Source: Oryzias latipes
Lineage: Eukaryota > Chordata > Actinopteri > Beloniformes > Adrianichthyidae
Length of the DNA: 64,000 bases
Direction of reading: 5' to 3'
Assembly: GCF_002234675.1 (NCBI RefSeq)
Contig: NC_019876.2
Location: forward strand, 29,153,196-29,217,195
The translations under genes were made by a program, and so were the position numbers. Shown here piece after piece: positions 1 through 62,752 of the stretch. Within the stretch, counting starts at the first letter, position 1. Each line of letters starts with the position of its first letter. The notes below the pieces were generated by a model. It had not been told where the DNA came from. It ran no database searches and saw only the letters and a list, made by a program, of their open reading frames with translations.

Positions 1-1940
1 TAAAAAGTCCGGACACAAACAGAGCAGAGCTGAATGAGTCTTCTTCTTCTGTGGTTCTCAAACAACTAAATGGTTCATTACCGCCACCTACTGGTAGGAA
101 GGGGGATTTTTTTTTTCTTTTCTTTCCTTTTTCTCAATTTTCCTCATTTCTTTTAAATACGTTGTTGTTGGTTTTCAAAAACGTTAGCTATTCTGAATGA
201 TGGAAGTATTGAATCGTATTATTACAATAGAAACACTAAACAACAGAACTCATGTAAAATATGAAGTCTATAAGAACATTTGATCTTTCTAAAGAACTGC
301 AGTTTTTTCTACATTCTTTGTTCAATAAGATCATTTAAACCTCTGGACTGTAAATGTTCATTGTTGATGTGCAGGTGGCACAGCATGTGCAATGTTTTCT
401 GTAGCCATTGTCTTGTGTCTAGTTCATTATAAAGTTTGTTTAAAAAAACATGCAAGAAAGTGTTTGGCAATGTTTTGATAAATAATTGTGCTACAAAATA
501 TTGTCACTTCTCGAAAGCCAATCCATACAATAATGTCACATGTCTGTCAAATGAAGCAGCATGTTTTTCTTTCTTAGTCATTTTTTAGCCTTCTTTAAAA
601 CGACCCTGTTCGTTCTAGAGATACAGTAAAATGAATAAATCATCAACTTATAACATTATACAGCAACAATCTGAAACATTAAGACGCCATCACAATAAAA
701 AAAGAAACCAACAGCACTATATCAAATCAGATAAGGTTAAAAAAACTGTTTTTGTGTATAGAAAATTAAAACTAAAATCAAACATTTTATCTCTAAGGTA
801 TTTGGAGTGTTTGTGCCCATATTGGTGGTAAAAATCCTCCTGAAAAACTACTGATTTGTATGCATTCTTATCACAGATGATTGATTGTTTCCATGGTAAC
901 ATCACAGCTGTTTTCCTGAAAAGTGTAAACATAACAGCTCCCTGTTTGGATGAATGTCATTCATATTCTTGAAATGAGTTTCTTTGCATTTTGGAGCAAC
1001 AGGAAGTTTTATAAATTTAGATCTTAAGTTCCCGCTTTCCAACTTTGTGTAATTTTTTTTAATGTAGGACACGTGGAGCAAAGATTGAGGGACTTTTTGT
1101 AATTTTTTGCATTTTTTGCAACGTTTGTTGATGGAAAGTAGAATGTTTAGTAGTTTCTTACAGTCCTAATTGTATTTCAGAATGAAATTGCCCCCCCCCC
1201 CCACACACACACAAATCTGAGAATTAGATACTTTTTTCTTTTTCTTTTTAATCTAAGCCAAACAATTTTAAGTACACCGTAAAAACTCTGCAACTGTGTT
1301 GTCCACATCATTATAATGCAGAGTTATTGTGCCTTTTGTTCATGTAATGTTTTGTTTTTTCTAATGAAATTGAAGTTTCCTTTGTTTATTCATTTCTTGC
1401 AGGTTTGGGGATTGACAAAACATTTTGCAGTGTGAATGAATCTTGAGAGACATTATTTAGAAAAAACTTTAAAAATGGAAATGTCAAGCTGTGATCACAC
1501 GTTTAAGTGAAGTTTGCTGCTCAAGCTCACTAAAAATACAGAGAGAGAGAGAGAGAGGGGGGGGGGGGTTAATAAATTTTTAATTTTTCAAAAATCAAAT
1601 GAGTTCGAATTGGCTTTTGGTTTTGAAGTTGTTTGATAATGTTTGAGTACTGACTGATTTAATCCAAAAATGTGTTTTTTTCATCTGTAATTGTTTTATT
1701 GAACATTGAAAAAACAGTTTTATACATGGGGATAAATAAGGTCACCTCTTAAGGATAGATCAGGTCCATGTTCAATTCTCTTTTTATTTATTTTTAAATT
1801 AGAACTTTCATTCAACAAATGTTGGAATCTAGACCAGTGTGGTTTCGTTTGCGCGTGCGCAGTGCTCAGCCCCGCTGTCGGCCGCAGAGATTTGACGTCG
1901 TGTCGCACGTCAATGACGTATTTGTCGCCAGAGAGGGAAA
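1..1940. other. Upstream region of pelp1, no gene seen
   Basis: AT-rich sequence with no ORF longer than about 70 codons and no recognisable protein on either strand. It contains low-complexity tracts: a C run then CA repeats near 1,191-1,213, and a GA tract followed by a G run at about 1,542-1,568. Composition changes sharply near 1,845, where CpG becomes frequent ahead of the pelp1 start codon. The 3' end of an upstream gene could lie here as untranslated sequence, but nothing supports that directly. Confidence 0.5.
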
Positions 1941-2100
1941 ATGGCTACATCTGTCGGGCTGCATGGCTCGCCTGCCCTCAGACTCACAGAGGGTTTAGTG
2001 TCGTTTCTGAAAGAACAGCGGCCCGAGTATTTACCGGAGGTGTTGGTCAACTACAGGGAGCACGGCCTTCAGATCCAGGTGAGCGCGCGGAGCGCTAAGG
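1845..2100 (+). promoter_or_regulatory. pelp1: CpG-rich promoter / 5' end of pelp1 with CRE-like sites
   Basis: CpG dinucleotides are frequent here, unlike the AT-rich DNA on either side, as expected for a housekeeping promoter that overlaps exon 1. Two CRE/ATF-like cores are visible just before the start codon: TGACGTCG at 1,893-1,900 and TGACGTA at 1,914-1,920. No TATA box is seen. The transcription start cannot be fixed from sequence alone. The first core is identical to the core of the minisatellite in intron 7. Confidence 0.5.
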
Positions 2101-5100
2101 CTCATGGGAGCTTGATGTTTTTTTTGTTAATCGAAGGCAGAATGCTAACGTGGAGCAGCACATCATTGTGTGTATTTGTGTGTTTCACGTGAGCGTTTAT
2201 CTCCTCAGGGAGCGAATGATGTGGCAGGTTTGGTGGGTTTCAGCAATGCCAAGTTATCCTCAAGCAAGACCAGGTGAGACTTTCACATTAAAATGCTGAT
2301 GCTTTTACTTTGAAAAAGCACACAGGTAAAGGTAAGGAGGACCGTTTCTGCTTGTGTGCATCCATAAACAGGTTTGAGGGCCTGTGTCTGCTCTCTGTGT
2401 TGGTCAAAGACAGCAGCAGTGACCTGTTCCAGCAGCACTGCCTCTTCTGGCTGCGCTCCCTTCAGCAAATCATTCAGGTATGGAGAAGGCTGCATGCAAG
2501 GGCAGGTGGGGTTGGGAGGGGGCATTTGTTGTCTAAATACAGCCCTGCTCACCCTTACTGCCCCTCCTTCATGTCAGCATATTTTTTAAACATGTTGTTG
2601 TAGCATTTTTCTGATGATGGATGACATTTATAAAGAAATTCAGATTAAACTAGTAGGAGCTGCTTTTCTAGAAAGAACTGCAGGGTTGAATGCTAGATTT
2701 CTGAATGAAACTCAAAGGGGAAGAATTGGCCTAAAAATAAAGAAGGAAATGATCAAAGTTGACTATAAATAAGGGGAAAACAACACAATAACAAAAAAAA
2801 CTTTGTGAAAAATGTTACAGCCGGGTATCGAACCAGCGAGCTTCTGCACCAAGGATTCCCCGTGTCTTTCAATGGAGGCAAAAATCCTGGAATATCTGGA
2901 AAAGTTCAAGGATTTGAAGGACCAAAAGTCAGAGCTGGAAAAAGATGAAAGAGCTGAACATTTGAATAGTTGAACGGTTAAAATAGATGAAAAACTGTAG
3001 GAGGAGTTAAGCACCAAAAAATGGAGGAAGATGCTAGAATAAAGAAAGAGAAACAGGAAAAGAATGGTTGAAGGATTTATAGTATTCACCAAATAGCATT
3101 TCTGAGTATGTCTTTATTCAAAGCAGACAAAACAAAGACATCCATTTCCCCCTGGATCCTGAGTGAGAAAATCCCCAATAATCTCGACCCCACCAAGCCC
3201 CCCCCCCTCCTGCAGGAGCTTTAATGAAGCCTTGACCTCTGCAGAAAGGCCTGTGTCAGTGGTGTCTCCCTCTCTGCTGCTGCTGCAGTCTCAGGCTCCC
3301 GTTCAGACCGTCCAGCTGGCCGTCAACATCCTGAAGGACCTGCTGCAGTACTCCAGCCATCTAGCGGAGCTCGCCAGGGAGGTCGGCCTCAACTCCATCC
3401 TGGGCATCCTGACGTCCCTGCTGGGCCTGAAGACCGAGGTGAGGGGGGGCGAGCTAGGAAGAAAGGCTGGGGGGCTGCATGGCACGTTTGTTTTCATCGT
3501 CTGAGCTTTTAGTACTTCATCGTATGTGTTCTGAATGTTTGTTTTTTTAAAGATGGAGTGGATCTATTGATGATCAGTAGAATGGGGGGGGCGGGGCCAT
3601 TTTGAAGATGATTTTGTCTTTTTCTGAGGTGTTTACATATAGTTTAATCTAGTTTAAATTAATTTTAATCTTTCAGGAACACAAAGGAACTGAATGTTTT
3701 AATTTTATTCCACACATTCACGGTGTACTGCGTTGTCTGTACCTGTCCTTTTAAAGTATTGGTCCCTTTCACTTTTCTCTCTAAACGTCTCCACTTGTTG
3801 ATTTTGTGTTCACGTGTTTTTAAAGCAGCAAAAAGAAACAGAAATAAAAATACATTCATGTATTTGTACTTACATTGACACGTTTTCACTACAGCTTCCA
3901 GCCTTCCTCCCTTATTTTGTCCATTTTTACTTTAGTTGTTCATTGGAACTTTTCTATTTAGTGTTTCCTTTGTCTCGTTGTGTCTTATTTTACAAACGTT
4001 TGTTTATGTAATACTCGTTGTTTTTCCAAAGAGGTTATAGTAGAAATGGAAGATGTGCATAGTTCAGTTCAGTTCTGTTCTGTTTCAATGAATTTTTATG
4101 AAACTCTTTTTGGAAAAATTGAATCTGAAAGTGTTTCTATGACCTGGAAGCTGCTCAGTGTTGCTTCGTTTGAATATTTATCTATATTTGGCTTTCCTAA
4201 CGTTCAAAAGCATCCGTGTTGTTTGTGTTCCAACCCTCCAAGTGTGAACTAGCAGCCATGGAGGGAATGGTGGCCTGCATGCTCTTCTATCCCAGAGCCT
4301 GTGGATCCCTGAAGGACAAACTAGGAGCCTATTTCCTCTCCAAAATGGACAGCAACAACATGAAAACCCAGGAGGTGAGGACTCCTTCTGTCAGTGTCCG
4401 TCTCCTGTTTGTCCAGCTGTTTATGAATTGTTGTTGCTTTTTTTTGGTGTGTAGATGGCCTGCTTGTGTTACAGCCATTTGCCCTGCCTGGGGGGGCTTT
4501 TGGACAGAGCCATAAGTGCTGGCAAAGCTGACGGCTGGACCAATCAGATCCAATGTCTCCTGGCTACGGCTGATGCCTTGTTGACTCAGATCTACAAAGG
4601 CTCAGAGCCAGGTAATCTTTATGGTGGTTTGTTAGTACACACGTGTATTCTTTACTTCTCTGTGCTGGGTTGAATAGTTTTACTCTTTATTTCTGTGCAG
4701 CCACTGAAGGGGAAACATCCCAGGCAGTCAGCGATGCAGAACTTTAGTTATTCACCAAAAATCCTTATTTTCTGCACCATCAAACAAAAAAAAACCCAGA
4801 ATATTTCTCAAATGTCCAACATGACGTTCATTACTCAGAATGATTAATTAGTGTCTGATTAGTTCCTTTGTTGATGGTTGAGTTAATCGAGGGGTGGGCA
4901 AACGTTTTGACTGAGGTGGGGGTCTTGAAATGTGACTGAAGCAGATCTGTGGAACATTTTGGAGTTTTTATTTCAGGACGGTGGCTTTCGTTTGTGCCCG
5001 ATGAGTCGATTACCTTCTATGGGAAACGTTAACGCGCTCATGTGGCGTTGAAATGGTCGGGAAAAATGACAGTTCGGCTCCAAAAACAGAAAACCAACAT

Positions 5101-8100
5101 CATATCCGAAGAACAACAATTCTTCCAACTTACTGTGGTTATAGAGCGCCATCTGTGGAGAGACACCAGAATTACAGGGAGAATTAAACATTAGTTAGGA
5201 TTATCAATATAAATAATTTCAGTTTGGCGTGCCAGATTTAATGGTTGAACACTTATGGCCCCCGGCCCGTAGTTTGGCCACCGTGTTTTTCGGTTGCTTC
5301 CTGTCTTACAGACGGCTCTGATGACACATTCAGTCCAAAATAGGAGGGAAAACGGCGTTCATTTGTATATCTGATAATAACACAAAGAGAAAAATAAAGT
5401 TTGTTAATTTAGCCCCATAGTCGCCAAAAAAAGTCTAGAATAAAAATGATTATTTTATTTGTGTAGCCTATAGAATAAGTCCCCACTTCAACATAAACCG
5501 TTTATTTAGTTGAATATGGAAATAAGTAGAGCTGAAGCCAAAGACTGAAGTATTCTGAGGAGGATTCACTTCAATTAGAACTGCTTTGGAGAACTACAAA
5601 CCTGGTCCTGATGGGACAGACAGAGAGAAACAGACCAGAATCTATCCCAGCTTGAATCGTTTCACATATTAGAACCAGGTTTTGTGAAAGTTCTTTTTGT
5701 TCTTTCAGAAATGGTGGTGCAGTACACAGGTCCTGGAGTGGAACTCGCCTTTCCTTACCTGGACCCAACAGAACCGCTGCTGCTGCTGCGCCTCCAGCAA
5801 AGATACACTGCTGTGTGCAGAGCCATGAGACACACACTCAGGTAACACACACACACACACACACATACAGAATAAAAAAGTGTCTGTCAGGATGTTGGTG
5901 GTCTATTTACTGTGGAGCCTCTGGAGAGAATCTGGACAAATAAGGGATTTATTTATTGAACATGAAGCATTCTAAGCATGAATGAACAACATGGAGAAGA
6001 GGTTTTCGATGCGCAGGTTTGTGACGTCGTGGGGGTGTGACGTCGTGGGGGTGTGACGTCGTGGGGGTGTGACGTCGTGGGGGTGTGACGTCGTGGGGGT
6101 GTGACGTCGTGGGTATGTGACGTCGTGGGGGTGTGACGTCGTGGGGGTGTGACGTCGTGGGGGTGTGACGTCGTGGGGGTGTGACGTCGTGGGTGTGTGA
6201 CGTCGTGGGTGTGTGACGTCGTGGGTGTGTGACGTCGTGGGTGTGTGACGTCGTGGGTGTGTGATGTCGTGGGTGTGTGATGTCGTGGGTGTGTGATGTC
6301 GTGGGTGTGTGACGTCGTGGGGGTGTGACGTCGTGGGTATGTGATGTGATGTTGTGGGTGTCTGGTGTCGTAGGTGTGTGATGCCGTGGGTGTGTGATGT
6401 CGTGGGTGTGTGATGTCATAGGTATGTGACGTCGTGGGGGTGTGATGTCATCGGTATGTGATGTCGTGGGGGTGTGACGTCGTGGGGGTGTGACGTCGTG
6501 GGTGTGTGACGTCGTGGGTGTGTGATGTCGTGGGTGTGTGATGTCGTGGGTGTGTGATGTCGTGGGTGTGTGATGTCGTGGGTGTGTGATGTCGTGGGTG
6601 TGTGATGTCATAGGTATGTGACGTCGTGGGTATGTGATGTGATGTTGTGGGTGTCTGGTGTCGTAGGTGTGTGATGCCGTGGGTGTGTGATGTTGTGGGT
6701 GTGTGATGTCGTAGGTGGGTGTGTGATGTCGTGGGTGTCTGATGTCGTGGGCGTGTGACGTCGTGGGTGTATCATGTCGTGGGTGTTTCATGTCGTGGGT
6801 GTTTCATGTCGTGGGTGTTTCATGTCGTGGGTGTTTCATGTCGTGGGTGTGTCCTGTCGTGGGTGTGTCCTGTCGTGGGTGTCTGATGTCGTGGGTGTCT
6901 GATGTCGTGGGTGTGTCATGTCGTGGGTGTGTCATGTCGTGGGTGTGTCATGTCGTGGGTGTGTCATGTCGTGGGTGTGTCATGTCGTGGGTGTGTGATG
7001 TCGTGGGTGTGTGATGTCGTGGGTGTGTGATGTCGTGGGTGTGTGATGCCGTGGGTGTGTGATGTCGTGGGTGTTTCTTGTCGTGGGGGTGTGATGTCGT
7101 GGGGGTGTGTGATGTCGTGGGGGTCTGACGTCGTGGGGGTCTGACGTCGTGGGGGTCTGACGTCGTGGGGGTCTGACGTCGTGGGGGTCTGACGTCGTGG
7201 GGGTCTGACGTCGTGGGGGTCTGACGTCGTGGGGGTCTGACGTCGTGGGGGTCTGACGTCGTGGGGGTCTGACGTCCTGGGGGTCTGACGTCGTGGGGGT
7301 CTGACGTCGTGGGCGTGTGACGTCGTGGGCGTGTGACGTCGTGGGGGTGTGACGTCGTGGGCGTGTGACGTCGTGGGGGTGTGACGTCGTGGGCGTGTGA
7401 CGTCGTGGGCGTGTGACGTCGTGGGCGTCTGATGTCGTGGGTGTGTCATGCGTATGTTTGTGACGTCGTGGGGGTGTGACGTCGTGGGCGTGTGACGTCG
7501 TGGGTGTGTCATGCGTATGTTTGTGATTTCGTGGGTGTCTGACGTCGTGGGGGTGTGACGTCGTGGGCGTGTGACGTCGTGGGCGTCTGATGTCGTGGGT
7601 GTGTCATGCGTATGTTTGTGACGTCGTGGGGGTGTGACGTCGTGGGCGTGTGACGTCGTGGGTGTGTCATGCGTATGTTTGTGATTTCGTGGGTGTCTGA
7701 CGTCGTGGGCGTGTGACGTCGTGGGCGTGTGACGTCGTGGGCGTCTGATGTCGTGGGTGTGTCATGCGTATGTTTGTGACGTCGTGGGGGTGTGACGTCG
7801 TGGGGGTGTCATGCGTATGTTTGTGATGTCATGGGCGTGTGACGTCGTGGGGGTGTGACGTCGTGGGCGTGTGACGTCGTGGGCGTCTGATGTCGTGGGG
7901 GTGTGACGTCGTGGGGGTGTGACGTCGTGGGCGTGTGACGTCGTGGGCGTCTGATGTCGTGGGTGTGTCGTGCGTATGTGTGTGACGTCGTGGGCGTGTG
8001 ACGTCGTGGGTGTGTCATGCGTATGTTTGTGATTTCGTGGGTGTCTGACGTCGTGGGGGTGTGACGTCGTGGGCGTGTGACGTCGTGGGCGTCTGATGTC

Positions 8101-11100
8101 GTGGGTGTGTCGTGCGTATGTGTGTGACGTCGTGGGCGTGTGACGTCGTGGGTGTGTCATGCGTATGTTTGTGATTTCGTGGGTGTCTGACGTCGTGGGG
8201 GTGTGACGTCGTGGGGGTGTGACGTCGTGGGGGTGTCATGCGTATGTTTGTGATGTCATGGGCGTGTGACGTCGTGGGGGTGTGACGTCGTGGGCGTGTG
8301 ACGTCGTGGGCGTGTGACGTCGTGGGCGTCTGATGTCGTGGGTGTGTCGTGCGTATGTGTGTGACGTCGTGGGCGTGTGACGTCGTGGGTGTGTCATGCG
8401 TATGTTTGTGATTTCGTGGGTGTCTGACGTCGTGGGGGTGTGACGTCGTGGGCGTGTGACGTCGTGGGCGTGTGACGTCGTGGGGGCGTGACGTCGTGGG
8501 GGTGTGACGTCGTGGGCGTGTGACGTCGTGGGCGTGTGACGTCGTGGGTGTGTCATGCGTATGTTTGTGATGTCGTGGGTGTCGGATGTCGTGGGCGTGT
8601 GACGTCGTGGGGGCGTGACGTCGTGGGGGTGTGACGTCGTGGGCGTGTGACGTCGTGGGCGTGTGACGTCGTGGGTGTGTCATGCGTATGTTTGTGATGT
8701 CGTGGGTGTCGGATGTCGTGGGCGTGTGACGTTGTGGGAATGAATTAATGAATATTACAGCTTTTCAACAGAGGCGTTCTGGATCGTCAAACCCAGAAAA
8801 TCTATTTGTCTTATTTGTCTTCTCATCATCAGGGTGATGTCGTGGGCGTGTGACGTCGTGGGCGTGTGACGTCGTGGGCGTGTGACGTCGTGGGCGTGTG
8901 ACGTCGTGGGGGTGTGACGTCGTGGGGGTGTGACGTCGTGGGTGTCTGACGTCGTGGGTGTCTGATGTCGTGGGTGTGTCATGCGTATGTTTGTGATGTC
9001 GTGGGTGTTTGATGTCGTGGGGGTGTGACGTCGTGGGCGTGGGACGTCGTGGGCGTTTGACGTCGTGGGGGTGTGACGTCGTGGGCGTGTGACGTCGTGG
9101 GTGTGTCATGCGTATGTTTGTGATGTCGTTGGTGTCTGATGTCGTGGGGGTGTGACGTCGTGGCGGTGTGACGTCGTGGGGGTGTGACGTCGTGGTGGTG
9201 TCATGCGTATGTTTGTGACGTCGTGGGCGTGTGACGTCGTGGGGGTGTGACGTCGTGGGCGTCTGATGTTGTGGGTGTGTCATGCGTATGTTTGTGATGT
9301 CGTGGGTGTCTGATGTCGTGGGGGTGTGACGTCGTGGGCGTGTGACGTCGTGGGCGTGTGACGTCGTGGGTGTCTGACGTCGTGGGTGTCTGATGTCGTG
9401 GGGGTGTCATGCGTGTGTTTGTGACGTCGTGGGCGTCTGACGTCGTGGGGGTGTCATGCGTATGTTTGTGATGTCGTGGGTGTCTGATGTCGTGGGCGTG
9501 TGACGTCGTGGGCGTGTGACGTCGTGGGCGTGTGACGTCGTGGGCGTCTGATGTCGTGGGGGTGTGACGCCGTGGGCGTGTGACGTCGTGGGGGTGTGAC
9601 GTCATGGGCGTGTGACGTCGTGGGGGTGTGACGTCGTGGGCGTGTGACGTCGTGGGGGTGTGACGCCGTGGGCGTGTGACGTCGTGGGGGTGTGACGTCA
9701 TGGGCGTGTGACGTCGTGGGGGTGTGACGCCGTGGGCGTGTGACGTCGTGGGCGTGTGACGTCGTGGGAATGAATGAATGAATATTACAGCTTTTCAACA
9801 GAGGCGTTCTGGATCGTCAAACCCAGAAAATCTATTTGTCTTATTTGTCTTCTCATCATCAGGGTGATGTCGTGGGCGTGTGACGTCGTGGGCGTGTGAC
9901 GTCGTGGGCGTGTGACGTCGTGGGCGTGTGACGTCGTGGGGGTGTGACGTCGTGGGTGTCTGACGTCGTGGGTGTCTGATGTCGTGGGTGTGTCATGCGT
10001 ATGTTTGTGATGTCGTGGGTGTTTGATGTCGTGGGGGTGTGACGTCGTGGGCGTGGGACGTCGTGGGCGTGTGACGTCGTGGGGGTGTGACGCCGTGGGC
10101 GTCTGATGTCGTGGGTGTGTCATGCGTATGTTTGTGACGTCGTGGGCGTGTGACGTCGTGGGGGTGTGACGCCGTGGGCGTGTGACGTCGTGGGCGTGTG
10201 ACGTCGTGGGGGTGTGACGCCGTGGGCGTGTGACGTCGTGGGAATGAATGAATGAATATTACAGCTTTTCAACAGAGGCGTTCTGGATCTTCAAACCCAG
10301 AAAATCTATTTGTCTTATTTGTCTTTTCATCATCAGGGTGATGTCGTGGGCGTGTCATGCGTATGTTTGTGATGTCGTGGGCGTGTCATGCGTATGTTTG
10401 TGATGTCGTGGGCGTGTGACGTCGTGGGCGTGTGGGCGTTCTGGATCGTCAAACCCAGAAAATCTATTTGTCTTATATGTCTTCTCATCATCAGGGTGGA
10501 CCCGGCTTCAGCTGTTCGTCTGCCAGTAAAACCAATCCTCAACCTGGTGTGTCGAGCTCTCGCTGTAAACTCCAAGAGTACTGTAAGTGCAAAAACACAC
10601 ACACACAACATTCAAAAAGTGAAAAAGAAGATGAAGAGATATTTAATGTTCCTTATTGGAAATCGAGAGTAACGTTTGTTTATGGAAGCCGTCTGATTCA
10701 AATCATTTTTGTTGAACAATGACTGCTGCTGCTTCTACTGTTCAACACCATGAGTGAATTAATTACAAAAACAAAAAGTAATGGCACTAAAGAATCTGCT
10801 GACAGAAGTTTTAAAGGCCCACTTCAATGGTTCAGAACTGGACGGATGGACAGCTCCGATATTGCTGCTGTTTTTGTTGCAGCGCTAATGTTAGGCCAGA
10901 GTTGTTGTTGTAGTTGTTGGAGAGTGTAAACAAAGGGATGATGGGAAATTAAAAAACGGATGACAGAAACCAGTCTGCAGGTATATTTATGCCTGAAATG
11001 ATCATAATGCAGCAGTAATTTCCTTCTTTGTTGTTCACTAAAGCTTTCTGTTCACGTGTTTTAAGTTACTGCACTCGAATGTACGTCTTTTATGATTTGG

Positions 11101-14100
11101 TGACGCTCTGTGTTTCCGTTTAATCTGTTCTTTTTCAGAGTTTATCTGCAGATGGAAGTTTGATGCTGTTGATTTTACCCAGCATTCACTGCAACACTTT
11201 AGAGATGCTGTCAGACCTGATCACAGTGTGAGTACTCAGCTGCATGTGCCCCATACGTCTATAGTTTGAGCCTTAGCGACCTTTAGAATGCACTGATCCA
11301 ATAACTAAAGGGAACACCAGCTAACTGCTAACGGATGGAAGATTTCTATATAAATGCTTCATTATTTGCAGACCTGCATGTGCTGACAACACAACACAAC
11401 CACACAACACAACAGGATTAATGCTAATGACATCTATTGGCCTGTGGAAGTCTGGATGTGGAATCATGCTCAAAAGAAAAAAACTCAACTGATCCAACGT
11501 GGATGTAACGTTTTTGACACGAGTCAGAATGAGGTGCAGGAGTGGGCGTGGCCTCCACATGCCCATATGACTTTACTTCTTATGAGGCGGGGGATGGTCC
11601 CCTGCCACACCGGGAACGACCGGGCCGGTCCATTCCACCGAAACCTTCGTCTAGCAGAAACTGCTGACACAATGCAGCCACATGAGGTCCAGTGTGGTCT
11701 GGCCTTGGGAGGACTCCAGGGCCCAACCGCACCAGCATGTGGTCTCACACGGGGTTTGAGGATCTGATCTGGGTACATAACAGCAGTCAGGCTTCCTCTG
11801 GTGAGCTCATGGAGAGCTGTGCGTCCCCAAATCATTACTGAACCGGTCAGAACATTCTCCAGACTCTGTCCCAGTGTGACCCGGCTTCCATCTGTGAAGA
11901 CCACAGGGCGCCAGTGGAGAATTTGTCGATCTCTGTGTTCTCCTGCAAATGCCAAACGTCCTCCTGCTGTTGGGCTGTGAGCACGACTCCCACCTGTGGA
12001 TGTCGGTCCCTCATGGGGTCTGGTTCTAACCGTTTGAGCAGACATGTGGCCTGTGGAAATGGTGATTCTGCTGAGCTCTGGCTGTGCTCCTCTTGTTTCT
12101 CCGTGAGCAAAGGAGGAGGTGGTGGTCCTGATGGAGGGTTGTTGCCCTCCTACCGCCTCCGCCACATCTCCTGATGTTCTGGCCTGTCTCCTGGTAGCGC
12201 CTCCACGCTCTGGACACGACGCTGACAGGCGTTGATGTGTCGTCCTGGATGAGTTGCACTTCCTGTGTGGCTCGTAGACGCCGTCTCCCGGTTCCACTGG
12301 AGTGACGGCACTGTTGACATTTAAAAGTCACCAAAGCATCGCCCAGAAAACAGAAGGGTGGAGAAGTGGTCACCACTGTCAGAATCGCTCCTTTATTGGA
12401 GGAGTCTCGCTGATGGCCCTTTTCTTTCCACCACTTCCACCAAAACAGGGGAAGTGTCTCTTCGGTCAGCGGTGCTTCCTGATTGGACAGTTTGATTACA
12501 CGGAAGTGGACTTGGAGCAACATTGAGTTATTTAGGTGTTCCCTTTATTTTCTTGAGCATAAGTAAAATTAAATACTCTTTATTCCAGCAGGCTTTGTAA
12601 TTTTACTTAAAAATGACCAACAAAAAAACATTTAGCTCACTGAGATTTTATTGGTTTTACTGACGTTTCCATCAGAAATCCAAGTTAAATTTTTAGGATA
12701 TATTTTCAGGAATAATCAGTTTTTAGTAAAAAGTGGCGTCTGGTCACTCAGCCTTGAGGAACTAGTTGGTGCGATTGCAGCAAAGCTAGATCCTGTTAAT
12801 CAGTTTAGCCTGATTTCTATCAACGCCTGCTTTTTGTTGGTGTGATTCTTGCATTGCAGGGTCCGCAGCAGCATGGTTCCATACGCCGCTATCATTCAAA
12901 GGCTGTTTTCTCAAACGCTGTCTGCTTGGACTCCTCTGGTGGAAGCAGGCGTTGGCCGGCAGAGAGGGTACAGGTGAGGGCCTCTACCTGTACCTGCTGC
13001 TACATTGACACTGAGGTTCTCTGATGAAGACTCCACAGGAGTCCATGCTGTGAGTTTTAGTCTGTGTGTGAATTAAGGAAGGTTTTCTTTTTCTTGTCCA
13101 GCTCGGTTAGGGTGTCTGTGTACAAAACCTTAGAGCTGTGGGTCAAGGTAGTGGGAGCTTCTGTCAGCATTCTCCAGGAAAACCCAATGCATGCAGACCT
13201 GCTGTTCAGTAACCTGCTTGGTGACATCACCCCCGGACCAGAATCCATCAAGGTAAGAATTGACCACATTCAGAAATGAAGGGACTATAAAAAGCAGTGG
13301 CTATGTGCTTGTAGCAGTAATTGAAGATGGACTTGGTCCACCGTTTACTCCCTTCTTTCAGTTTAGGGCGGGTCTGGGTGTGGACGTAGTTCCCGGGGGA
13401 AAGCCAGGTCCTCGGAGGACGAAGCATTTGGTCATTGCAGATCCAATGGGTCCATCACTGCAGAGGAAGGGGGACCCTTTGTCCAATCAGGACACGTGCC
13501 TTGCTGCCCTTAGAGGTGGAATCGCTATTTGATCCAATAATAACGGTTTAGTCGGGTGTTTTTATGAAACTGCTGACTTTTAAACGACTTGTTTCTCTTC
13601 TTCTGCAGCATTGAGACAAATCATCCAGACGTGCGGGACACTGATAAAGGAGGACATACACAAGGTACGTTTGTGGAAAGGACAATCAGGACTGAGGGTC
13701 TGATTTTAGGGTTAAGTTACCATGAGAGGTCACAGGGATGGACCACTGTCTGCATGATTTCCAGATATCCAAGCTCTACTCGTGACTGATTACCTGCTTC
13801 AGGCGTAGGGTAGGGTGTGTTGTAAAAACACTCCATAATGCGACCCTCGAGGCCTGGAGTTGCCCGTCCCTGGCGGGGCATTTCTTGCTGGAGGCAGACT
13901 TAAAAATGTTCCTGACAGTTGCTCCATTTTCCAGAAAGATGTGTACGGTTTACTGCACACATGATGTGCTGTTCATGCTGTTGTGTATGGCGTCATAACC
14001 CTCCTTTCCTGTTCTTGCAGAGGCTCCATGAGGTTGTGTTGCCGCTGTGTGTGTGTCTGCAGCAGCAGAAAGGCTCCAGCTCGGTTTTCGAGTCCACCGG

Positions 14101-32600: not shown

Positions 32601-35600
32601 TCTTCAGGCATGGCGGTACAGACAAGCAACATGTCCTTTGACGATTTCCGATTGGCCCAATCCAAATTCACCTCCTGCCCCTACGGTTTCTCCAGACCCG
32701 TGCATTTATCCCTCCAAGCACAGACTTATAGAAACATAAGGTCTTCAAATCCGGGTGTTACTCCCACTTGATGGCGTCCTGAATAGTCGCAGGTCATCTG
32801 CGTAGGCGCGTAGCTGCCAGTGCTTGGAAATAAATAAAAACATCAGTTCTATTATTTAAAAAGCCATGCTAAAACAGAAAGTCCTTACCTGCAATTAGAA
32901 TGAAAACTTGTGTGCTTCAGAGGTCACCCATGTGAGGAAAAGCGCCACGTGGAACACGCTGGCAGCGTAGGGATAGTCACTACGGCTACTCCTAAAAAAT
33001 CGAGTTCAGACACCATTACAGCTTCAAATACCCCTACAGTTGGAGCAGTAAGGGGTCAGAGGGGTAGGGGAGGAACTCTGAGTTTATAGATATGAAATGT
33101 TTTTTCTCTCCTCCCAATAAACCGCGTGAATGTGCTAACCTTTTTGAAATAAAAGCTGCGCTTTTCTCAAGTGAATTCTTTTTGCTGCAGGCCTCCAGCC
33201 ACCCGAGTCAGCGATAAAGTCATGATCCCGCAAGATGAATACCCCGAAATCAACTTTGTTGGGCTGCTGATTGGACCACGGTAACGCACACCGTTTCAGA
33301 CGGCTGCCTTTGCTTTCTAACGTCCTGTAAACTTCAACGTCTTGAGGTGGCTCAGACTCTCTCTATGCTCTCGTTTTCCCAGAGGAAATACGCTGAAGAA
33401 CATCGAGAAAGAATGCTGTGCCAAGATCATGATCAGAGGGAAGGGTTCGGTGAAAGAAGGGAAGGTCGGGCGAAAGGATGGCCAGATGCTGCCCGGAGAG
33501 GACGAGCCTCTGCACGCCTTGGTCACGGCCAACACCATGGAAAATGTCAAGAAGGCTGTGGAGCAGGTGTGTTTGCTGGTGGACACTTCCCAGTCTGATG
33601 TGTTTCCAGCTACAGGAGCAGATTTGGTTCTGATGGGAAAACTGTTCACAGATCCGAAACATCCTCAAGCAAGGAATCGAGACGCCTGAGGACCAAAACG
33701 ACCTACGCAAGATGCAGCTGAGGGAGCTGGCCAGACTCAACGGCACTCTCAGAGAAGACGACAACAGGTGTGTGTGTGTGGCGCTATGGGCTGTTCTGCC
33801 CATAAAAACGACTCCACGAAAGGAGGATTTAGGGAAAGGTTCAAGCTTTATGTTGAAAGCGGCGCTGAAGATTGTTTCCTCGTTTTTCCTTGCAGGATTC
33901 TTCGTCCTTGGCAGAACTCGGAGCCACGCAGCATCACCAACACCACCCTTTGCACAAAGTGTGGTGGAGCCGGTCACATCTCTTCTGACTGCAAGTACAC
34001 CAGGTAACCATCAGCCTCGGTCTGGAGGTTCCAGTTGCAGAACTCGTCACAAAGATTCATTTGTTGTTGTTGTTCTGCAGCACCTTCGCTGCCCACAGAG
34101 CCACAGGCGGGGAGCCCCCCCAGTCAGCGCAGGACAAGGCTCGTATGGACAAAGAATACCTGTCCCTCATGGCTGAGCTGGGGGAGGCCCCCGTCCCCAG
34201 CTCTGGCGGGGGACACTCCAACTCTCAGTCAGGATCTCGGAATTCCGGCCCCAACAGCAACCAGGCGATGGTCAGTTCAGGAAACAGACTGGAGCTGCTT
34301 CTTTGATGAGTGGAAAGCGTCTTAGCTGATGTGTGTTTCAGAACCGCCCCCCCTGGATGAGCTCTGGCCCCTCAGAGAACAGGAACTACTCTGCTGTTCA
34401 GGGAGGTCCCGCTGGACCCCACGGCTTCCCTCCCCCGATGCCTAGCATGGGAGGACCACCGCTTCCTCCCAATCCTAACGGAATGCCCCCACCCTGGATG
34501 CAGCCGCCCCCACCTCCCATGGGCCAGGGACCCCATGGACACCCCATGGGTAGGAGCTTTCATTGCCCAGAAGACGCACAATGTAAATATTACTCTTCTT
34601 TTCAAACAAACTGACTTTCAAATTCAAATGTAGCGGTCAGCAAGTAAAACGGTTCACTTCTGGCCCCAACCTAATGAAGTCAATTCAGTCGCCACTTTCT
34701 CACGGTATGGACGCCGTCATGTTGGAACCATCAGTAAGAAGGGATCTGCCTGAGTAGACGTTTCTATGGCAACCAGGAGTGAGCTTGTTGAAAGGCCACA
34801 CCTGAAAGCAGGCTCAGGAGAATCTGTCAATCACACGTTTTCAACGCTCACATTTAGCGGGGCGTCTGATTGGTCCGTTTATAACTTGAGTGACTTGCAA
34901 GAAAGAAAAGAGATTTTAAAAACATTTAGCATTATCAAGATTTTAAAATAGGAATCTGAGCCAGAGCGGTCCTTAGTTCTCTATCGAAGTCTGGAATTTT
35001 GGCTTTTTGGAGCCAGCAGGTACTTCCTGTTTGGAACGCCGGGGGGGGAGGGGTCACTCAGTCCAGTTCCCATTTACAGTCAATCAATTCTGGCAAAAAA
35101 AAGTATATTATTGTGCTTTCAATTTTATATAATATTTACTTTGGTGTAAAGGATTTTTGTGTTTAAAGTGTTTTATAAATAAAGATTGATTTGGTTTATA
35201 AATAAAGGTGGAAGGCGGCGCCTTCCTCTGAACCTTCAAAGCAGAACTGAGCATCACATCTGTTTGTTTAGGTATGATGCCACCTCCAATGGGTATGATG
35301 CCACCACCTCCTCCACCCCCCAGCAGCCAGCCCCCTCCACCACCCTCCGCTCCCTTGCCACCATGGCAACAACAGGCTCCGCCCCCTCCTCCTACAAGCA
35401 GCATGGCAACAAGTACACCGCTGCCGTGGCAGCAGAGTAAGTATCCAACCAGAATCTGGTGCAGTGCATGTCAGACCCCAGCAGGGTCACGCCAGGGCGG
35501 TGTTGCTGCGTTTTGGCGCCGTTTGGTGACCGTCTGTCCCCTCCTCCTCCCTCGCAGACACCACCACCACCACCTCCAGCACCGGCACGCTGCCTCCATG

Positions 35601-35886
35601 GCAGCAGCCCCAACAGCCTTCTGTGTCTGCAGCTCAGCCCCCTCTGCCCATCGGAACCGCATCCATGGTGCCGCCTCCTCCCGGGGTCCAGCCCCCCTTG
35701 CCCCCAGGCGCCCCTCCGCCGCCACCCCCACCACCTCCGGGCTCCACCAGCATGATGTATGTTCCGCCGCCCCCTCCGCCACCCATGGACCCTTCCAATT
35801 TTGTTACCATGATGGGGATGGGAGTTCCGGGCATGCCACCCTTTGGGATGCCCCCCGCCCCTCCTCCTCCTCCCCCACAGAATTAA
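23616..35886 (+). CDS. sf1: sf1: splicing factor 1 (branch-point binding protein)
   Basis: Exons: 23616-23862, 25552-25677, 27386-27461, 31831-31983, 33191-33280, 33383-33566, 33652-33767, 33896-34003, 34081-34270, 34342-34549, 35272-35436, 35558-35886. Phases agree and give 663 residues plus stop. SF1 binds the intron branch point in the early spliceosome, together with U2AF2. Visible parts: the U2AF2-binding KKRKKSRW motif with Arg92-Trp93; SPSP at 151-154, the site phosphorylated by KIS in mammals; a KH domain in exons 5-6 with the GPRG loop of LLIGPRGNTLK; a QUA2 region in exon 7; a CCHC zinc knuckle (Cys350, Cys353, His358, Cys363) in exon 8; and a long proline-rich tail ending APPPPPPQN. 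The start is [13 protein letters not shown], continuing into an 82-residue Gly/Pro/Ala-rich exon 1 as in the long mammalian isoform, not the short DFPSKKRK form. Similarity to mammalian SF1 is high throughout. Introns 2 and 3 are the longest. Confidence 0.97.
24630..24975 (+). repeat. Dispersed repeat, copy 3 of 5, in sf1 intron 1
   Basis: Forward copy with the shared TTACAGCCCCTCACA, GCTAACATTAG, GATCCAGATTCCAGCTCAG and AAGGGGCGGAGC blocks. It ends near a TCTGCTCCCGATTCACAA segment that also ends copy 4. Non-coding. Confidence 0.65.
25678..27385. other. sf1 intron 2, nothing recognisable
   Basis: About 1.7 kb of AT-rich intron with no long ORF, no terminal inverted repeats that I can pair, and no RNA gene. 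A short G run lies near 26,233-26,241. Confidence 0.5.
27965..28616. mobile_element. Miniature DNA transposon in sf1 intron 3
   Basis: The ends are inverted: CAGTAGCTGTATTTCCATTG at the left and CAATGGAAACGCAGCTACTG at the right, matching at 18 of 20 positions. The 652-bp interior has no transposase. The hAT-like CAG...CTG ends suggest a non-autonomous hAT family, but I see no clear 8-bp target duplication. Confidence 0.65.
29063..30728 (+). mobile_element. Decayed Tc1/mariner-like element in sf1 intron 3
   Basis: Long imperfect inverted ends flanked by TA: the left end contains ACTGTGCAAAAGTTTTTGGC and the right end, in reverse, CACTGTGCAAACATTTCAGG. The interior around 29,985-30,480 on the + strand has broken transposase-like text, for example [10 protein letters not shown]-type and SLKNQKP pieces near 30,325-30,400. 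Between 29,270 and 29,960 there is other sequence with a 167-codon minus-strand ORF (29,870-29,367) that I do not recognise; it may be a second insertion. Confidence 0.6.
32000..33190. other. sf1 intron 4, nothing recognisable
   Basis: Non-coding intron between exons 4 and 5. No long ORF and no element boundaries that I can pair were found. Confidence 0.45.
34550..35271. repeat. sf1 intron 10, probable old dispersed repeat
   Basis: The stretch around 34,670-34,870 contains text such as ACGCCGTCATGTTGGAACC that I associate with dispersed repeats in fish genomes. No termini or coding content can be defined. Confidence 0.3.
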
Positions 35887-36439
35887 TTCTCAATTGCAGT
35901 TGCCCGACAGCCCCCCCCTCCATCACATGATTCGGTCCGGCTGATTGACGCTACAGTCCACAGAGGAGTGGTTTCCAGCTGTGAGCGGCTGCATCCGTTC
36001 TGCTGCTGCAGCGCCGCGGTTGTCATGGAAACCCGCCCCCCCTTCATGGTTTCTGTGCTCCAATGAATCTGAACATTTTAGTTTGAGGTCCCAGCTGAAG
36101 CTGCATGATCCGAGCTCAGTCTGGTCCGCTGTTTTCCCGCCCTTCTCTGTTTTCCCGCCTTCAATCAGATGAATATTTTTGTAACAGTGAGACGATCGGT
36201 GACACGGATCTTAGCTCAGTCCAAAACGCTCCGTGTTGTAACTCATTTCCCTGTTGGTTGCTTAGCTCTAGACTATAATTGCTGTTTCCTGCTCTTCTTT
36301 TCACTGCATCTGCGTTCAGAAACGCAGAGACGGAACGGCGTTTGTGTGGCTTTGAGAAGATTCTGTTCTGTTCTTTCTTAGACGGACGTCAACAGAGCAT
36401 CTTGTCTTTTTCCTTGTTTGTGGATTTGTCTCTGACCTC

Positions 36440-39084: not shown

Positions 39085-58289
<19,205 letters not shown>

Positions 58290-61828: not shown

Positions 61829-62752
61829 ACAGCACATTTAATATGTTGGAAAGGCTGTTTAAGGAGAGAGAGCAAATGGGGGCAGCTCTGGCCACCCTCC
61901 ATACGGACCTTCCTCCATCACCTCAGAGGACTACCAGGCCATACACCACTGCTTGAGCGTTCTTTCCCCGTTTCAAGAGGCCACAGTTGAGCTTTCGACA
62001 GAAAAACGAGTGTCAGTCTCCAAAGTCAGTCCCATAGTCAAAATGCTGAAACATTACATCTCAAGCAGGTGTGGTCAGATCACACAGCCACTTGGTGAAA
62101 AACTGGCCACTAACTTGAAGAACAATCTCCATGAGAGGTTTTCAGCTCTGGAGAAGGTCACTGCTCTGTCAATGGCAACCTTGTTGGACCCAAGGTTTAA
62201 AGAGCTGGGGTTCTGCAGCCAAGGCTCTGCCCACACGGCCATAGAGCGACTCACTAAAGAGTGTGCTGCAACAATGCAGGCGCTACTTCCAGAGGCACAG
62301 CCACAGTCGCCACCTAGAGAAGGTCCTTAAGGTCAGCAGGAAGATGGTGGTCTCTGGGCCCTGCTGGACAGGCATGTGGGGGTTCAACAGCAGGTGACCA
62401 GCACAACTGCCAGTGCAACAGTGGAGGTTCAGAGGTACAGTAAAGATTAGAATCCTCATCATAACTTCTGCTCATTTTAGACTGGTGCATGACAATAGGC
62501 TATTAATGTCCTTCTAGGTACTTAAAGGAACCTCACATCCCAAGGACTCAGGACCCACTGAGATACTGGGTTACCCACAAGGTTTTATACCCACATCTCT
62601 ACAAGCTGGCAATGAAGTTTTTATGCACACCAGCTTCATCTGTGCCTTGTGAGAGGATCTTCTCCAAGGCTGGCGAAATCGTCAGCCAAAGACGAAACAG
62701 GCTGAAGCCCAGCACAGTGGAGAAAATTCTGTTTTTAAATAAAAATCTATAA
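61829..62752 (+). pseudogene. Broken hAT transposase (ZBED1/4-like) fragment
   Basis: The + strand reads TRWNSTFNMLERLFKEREQM from about 61,820. It then shifts frame near 61,915 to EDYQAIHHCLSVLSPFQEAT and continues through MATLLDPRFKELGF (about 62,170-62,211) to a TAA at 62,328. The same frame can be followed to VEVQRY. After a possible 85-bp intron (62,434-62,518) it resumes with YLKEPHIP, then ASSVPCERIFSKAGEIVSQR and RNRLKPSTVEKILFLNKNL, which is the hAT C-terminal dimerisation domain, ending at 62,752. The frameshift and the internal stop mark it as a pseudogene. The N-terminal BED finger is missing. Confidence 0.75.

Follow-up and report, generated by a model that had tools for sequence, protein, structure and literature searches.

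Three copies of the exon 8 splice acceptor within an intronic minisatellite of PELP1 in Oryzias latipes

Intron 7 of the PELP1 gene of Oryzias latipes is largely occupied by a 16-bp minisatellite in which three copies of the 3' end of the same intron are embedded. Four near-identical 3' splice sites are therefore present in the intron: the true acceptor of exon 8 and three decoys. The most probable explanation, to which we assign a probability of about 0.7 as a whole, is that the copies are a young and unselected by-product of minisatellite growth, and that the decoys are mostly bypassed during splicing with some leak at the third copy (block C). Coordinates below are those of the window, i.e., the whole stretch of 64,000 nucleotides that was analysed.

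Results

Host gene and position of intron 7

The conceptual joining of exons 1 to 9 gave a stop-free sequence of 352 residues, of which residues 29 to 351 align with human PELP1 (9dum_C; E value of 7.7e-87), a scaffold of the Rix1 complex. The alignment spans the junction between exons 7 and 8, and sequence homology was thus present on both sides of intron 7. This intron is 4653 nt long and intron 8 is 556 nt long. The numbering of exons 7 and 8 in a first-pass annotation of this DNA fits the nine-exon model, as does its donor at 5,842, since exon 7 ends at 5841. The exons are as follows.

1941-2078, + strand, PELP1 exon 1, coding
2209-2273, + strand, PELP1 exon 2, coding
2372-2477, + strand, PELP1 exon 3, coding
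3289-3438, + strand, PELP1 exon 4, acceptor placed at 3288
4243-4374, + strand, PELP1 exon 5, acceptor placed at 4242
4455-4611, + strand, PELP1 exon 6, acceptor placed at 4454
5709-5841, + strand, PELP1 exon 7, coding; the donor GT at 5842 is the start of intron 7
10495-10582, + strand, PELP1 exon 8, 88 nt; donor ACT/GTAAGT
11139-11227, + strand, PELP1 exon 9, coding

Minisatellite array in intron 7

The features of intron 7 considered here are listed below.

6016-10434, + strand, minisatellite of intron 7 (4.4 kb), 16-bp unit GTGGGCGTGTGACGTC and variants
6009-6028, + strand, left array edge, ATGCGCAGGTTTGTGACGTC, similar to the 31-bp units (ATGCGTATGTTTGTGACGTC)
8738-8832, + strand, block A, decoy acceptor, copy of the intron end including the AG
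9768-9862, + strand, block B, decoy acceptor, copy of the intron end including the AG
10242-10336, + strand, block C, decoy acceptor, copy of the intron end including the AG; highest score of the four sites
10435-10494, + strand, true end of intron 7, with branch-point-like CTTAT (A at -20), pyrimidine tract and AG

Tandem Repeats Finder detected a period of 16 bp at 6016-10242 and again at 10338-10434. Parsing of the segment 5985-10500 yielded 235 pieces, most of which (201) are 16 bp long; a further 25 measure 31 bp, three measure 108 bp, and six, including both array edges, have other lengths. The three 108-bp units are those holding blocks A, B, and C. A 28-base unit pattern, searched with at most two mismatches in the 734-Mb assembly, gave 153 forward and no reverse matches; the same rule applied to the window alone also gave 153 matches, indicating that, at the sensitivity used, the array is private to intron 7 of PELP1.

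Most of the 31-bp units, which are found between 7437 and 10407, carry ATGCGTATGTTTGTGA. Where the array begins on its left side, in unique DNA, the sequence reads ATGCGCAGGTTTGTGA. In their non-repeat part, the edge and the 31-bp unit have equal bases at 7 of 10 positions (p of 0.003 for a single register picked post hoc). The array may likewise have captured its left flank, or the edge may be a worn 31-bp unit.

CpG is very abundant in the array (484 sites between 6016 and 10434), which also contains 141 TGACGTC words, a sequence close to a CREB/ATF site. Searching the whole window against Rfam at gathering scores returned no match.

Copies of the intron end

The three 95-bp blocks described in the first-pass annotation were found where it had placed them, with pairwise identities of 94/95 (A and B), 92/95 (A and C), and 93/95 (B and C). 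Each block terminates in CATCATCAG followed by GGTG, like the true site ending at 10494. The part common to the true site and the blocks is the last 60 bp of the intron (10435-10494), with one to three differences. Within these 60 bp, the true intron end has one private base (A for T) and block C has two. To the left, alignment of the true site with A, B, or C ends after a single base, and the 35 bp with which the blocks begin are absent from the true site. The opening G of each block is part of the repeat unit GTGGG. In view of the length of the matches, we judge chance to be unimportant. When the segment 10400-10560 was searched for in the 734-Mb assembly, with only the best candidates scored, four locations were obtained, namely the true site and the three blocks, whose identities over 64 bases were 98, 98, and 95%.

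Thus, the alignment that had been proposed as a check on the blocks revealed the acceptor sequence in all three of them, and the description of four near-identical 3' splice sites sharing about 60 bp, pyrimidine tract and AG included, was borne out. The additional claim that the copies extend over the first four bases of exon 8 (GGTG) has to be narrowed: since GTGATGTC is also a repeat sequence, the first G is the only one of these bases that necessarily originates from exon 8.

Predicted strength of the acceptors

Acceptors were scored with a simple matrix that was not fitted to this genome. With this matrix, decoys A, B, and C scored 10.55, 10.55, and 11.26, respectively, versus 8.96 for the true site. 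The seven remaining acceptors of exons 2 to 9 ranged from 2.30 to 12.85. In each of the four sites, a single yTnAy motif occurs in the interval from -15 to -59; its A is located at -20, and every site lies 36 bases after the nearest upstream AG. Outside the blocks, 6016-10434 contains six AGs in all, a density far below the 64.5 AGs per kb of the rest of the gene (1-6015). As the decoys outscore the true site, they cannot be excluded on the basis of strength alone, and their bypass is not obvious.

The donors of exons 1 to 9 all scored between 6.42 and 10.72. Donor partners that would convert sequence downstream from the decoys into cassette exons were also considered and rejected, the best word in 8833-10494 scoring 5.48, below all nine donors.

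Predicted consequences of decoy use

Counted from the codon at the junction up to the stop, decoys A and B each add 12 residues, in agreement with the dozen or so codons previously proposed for these two copies, and decoy C adds 22. The exon extending to the donor at 10582 is 1750 nt long from A, 720 nt from B, 246 nt from C, and 88 nt from the true site. Decoy C is therefore the best-placed rival of the true acceptor, its exon being nearest to an ordinary size, a point missing from the first-pass annotation.

In vertebrates, an exon tends to be paired with the donor at its own downstream end (exon definition). Exon definition, together with the lack of a good donor in the array after the decoys, would lead to predominant use of the last site. 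Some use of decoy C would generate a premature stop and, in turn, mRNA decay. Carranza et al. (PMC9225289) report that genes spliced by exon definition favor the sites that are closest across the exon. According to the same study, alternative 3' sites overall prefer upstream positions, a preference that is merely reduced under exon definition (PMC9225289). This upstream preference and the higher scores of the decoys both count against an easy bypass. Considering these elements together, we regard bypass of the decoys as likely and a leak at decoy C as a fair expectation. TDP-43 is a splice repressor that binds UG repeats. As 57 of the 86 GTGTGT words of the window lie within 6016-10434, it may be speculated that UG-binding repressors such as TDP-43 could assist the bypass.

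The same features could be viewed as those of a regulatory device, in which the decoy acceptors would compete with exon 8, so that a constant fraction of PELP1 transcripts would run into a premature stop and the level of expression would be tuned by allele length. In agreement with this proposal, all three decoys retain the branch-point-like motif, the tract, and the AG, outscore the true site, and are followed by an early stop, and the dense GTGTGT words would be usable by UG-binding repressors. However, the copies are so alike (92 to 94 identical bases out of 95) that intact signals may merely reflect their youth, and we consider a regulatory function to be rather unlikely. It is also unlikely, and a little more doubtful, that a number of decoys varying from allele to allele would set the loss of PELP1 mRNA, and that exon definition and UG-binding repressors alone would keep the stronger decoys in check.

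Origin of the copies

All three blocks have identical junctions, GTGGG/AATGAAT on the left and GGTG/ATGTC on the right. The latter junction is absent at the true site. This observation, and the fact that the blocks differ by one to three bases and occupy distinct unit contexts, argue against an assembly artefact in which the copies would originate from mis-joined repeat reads. Long tandem arrays are easily mis-assembled, and one amphioxus array of the type discussed below was mis-assembled in a draft genome (PMC3087553). On balance, we find an artefact quite improbable.

Comparison of the 220 bp located 3' of A and of B, blocks excluded, showed that 201 of 203 aligned bases match, with a similarity score reached by none of 300 random 220-bp pairs from the array. 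In the 220 bp preceding the blocks, A-B and A-C similarities were not above random (scores reached by 138 and 181 of 300 random pairs, respectively), and B and C were weakly alike (14 of 300 random array pairs). Downstream from C, only the first 19 bases follow the sequence present downstream from A and B. The identity of the junctions in all blocks and the match downstream from A and B make a single capture, followed by duplication within the array, the simplest history. The dissimilar upstream flanks and the early divergence of C mean that duplications of unequal extent, or later turnover of units, have to be allowed for.

Unequal exchange that captured the intron end on three independent occasions would also yield three copies, and would be compatible with sequences upstream from A being no closer to those upstream from B or C than random array pairs. 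It would not be expected to produce the same two junctions in all three blocks nor the near-identity downstream from A and B, and we hold such a history to be very improbable. The statement of the first-pass annotation that the intron end was copied three times is thus replaced by one in which a single capture fits the data. Its proposal that the growing array took up the intron end stands; the mechanism that it had put forward, unequal exchange, is not singled out, slippage or end-joining fitting equally well.

A single capture would have proceeded as follows. The 16-bp array in intron 7 would originally have reached GTGGG/AATGAAT, approximately 95 bp before exon 8, and this junction indeed looks like a former right edge of the array. 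A single duplication would have copied the entire 3' splice site into the array and left the original untouched; its left breakpoint would have been within the array and its right breakpoint one to four bases into exon 8, at a point where the exon shares GGGTG with the repeat. Additional duplications within the array would have led to three copies of the block. A later deletion of at least 35 bp would have moved the array boundary to GGCGT, at 60 bp from exon 8, with the branch point, the tract, and the AG preserved. Such a deletion at the true site would explain why the true copy is shorter. GGGTG at the start of exon 8 and GGCGT at -59 are both array words; since 5-bp array words are frequent elsewhere near the junction, a role of microhomology is weakly indicated by this coincidence taken by itself.

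Stepwise removal of intron 7 by recursive splicing, with each decoy acting as a joint acceptor and donor (AG/G/GTGATG), is hardly credible, since, although AGG/GTGATG is the second-best donor-like word in 8833-10494 (score of 5.04), intron 7 is just 4653 nt long and one base separates the AG from the GT, instead of the donor directly following the AG with a zero-length exon, so that each recursive step would retain one additional G and change the reading frame.

Discussion

The PELP1 structure resembles a type that already has a name, the mirages of amphioxus, of which it may be a variant; the first-pass annotation did not make this connection. Mirages are described as tandem copies of intron-exon boundaries and were found in the globin genes BflGb6 and BflGb9 and in Adh3 (PMC3087553). 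The BflGb6 mirage involves the 3' end of an intron and comprises six and three units in two haplotypes (PMC3087553). As in PELP1, minisatellite-like copies of a boundary lie beside the real one, with turnover of the array and possible cryptic sites; many copies carry AG/GT signals and, in BflGb6, the 3' end of the intron was copied together with the 5' part of the exon (PMC3087553). The authors suggest that regular splicing is undisturbed (PMC3087553).

The two systems also differ. In amphioxus, the boundary unit is the repeat itself (150-160 bp for BflGb6, 157 bp for BflGb9, and 10-72 bp for Adh3; PMC3087553), whereas in PELP1 the minisatellite has a 16-bp unit and the intron end occurs only as a rare 108-bp unit. 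Boundary segments account for 3 of 235 pieces, and the tandem unit is basically the 16-mer. The PELP1 copies do span the exon-intron boundary, with 60 bp of intron and a minimal exon part (one to four bases), and all three harbor the splice signals, i.e., the AG, the tract, and yTnAy with its A at -20. In contrast to the mirages, the real site lacks a part that the copies have kept, and the host gene is the vertebrate PELP1.

A minisatellite of the human interferon-induced gene 6-16 (IFI6) reportedly contains multiple splice donor sites (Nucleic Acids Res. 1995). Several splice sites are likewise offered in one gene, but these are donors rather than acceptors and are reportedly located within the basic unit. 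Rogers' proposal that introns may arise when sequence around AG/GT proto-splice sites is tandemly duplicated, as cited in PMC3087553, similarly involves copying of a splice site within a gene by duplication; unlike the introns in that proposal, the PELP1 copies sit in an existing intron and no intron was created. Among the listed titles and abstract openings on minisatellites and splice sites, drawn mostly from open-access literature, none dealt with acceptors duplicated inside a minisatellite of a vertebrate intron, which is a weak negative.

In intron 7 of PELP1, the spliceosome is presented with four 3' splice sites that are almost the same in sequence and are distinguished chiefly by position, and the choice between them constitutes a natural test; predicted strength points to the wrong sites and exon length to the right one. 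The intron also illustrates that a minisatellite can absorb a splice site of its host gene and leave the gene unbroken, because duplication leaves the original site in place. The mirage type may extend from amphioxus to a vertebrate gene.

Other features of the window

A neighboring gene at 33239-36000 encodes a KH domain (PF22675) and a zinc knuckle. It resembles SF1, the splicing factor that binds the branch point. A glycogen phosphorylase gene occupies approximately 54400-57600 (extent estimated by eye), with a match to Pfam PF00343 at 57062-57577. Reading frames at 11524-12327 (- strand), 56141-56431 (- strand), and 61863-62330 (+ strand) are presumably worn pieces of transposase genes (Tc1-like, hAT-like); none of the three had a Pfam match at an E value of 0.001. 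A GACA microsatellite with a higher period of 24 bp is present at 48243-48399.
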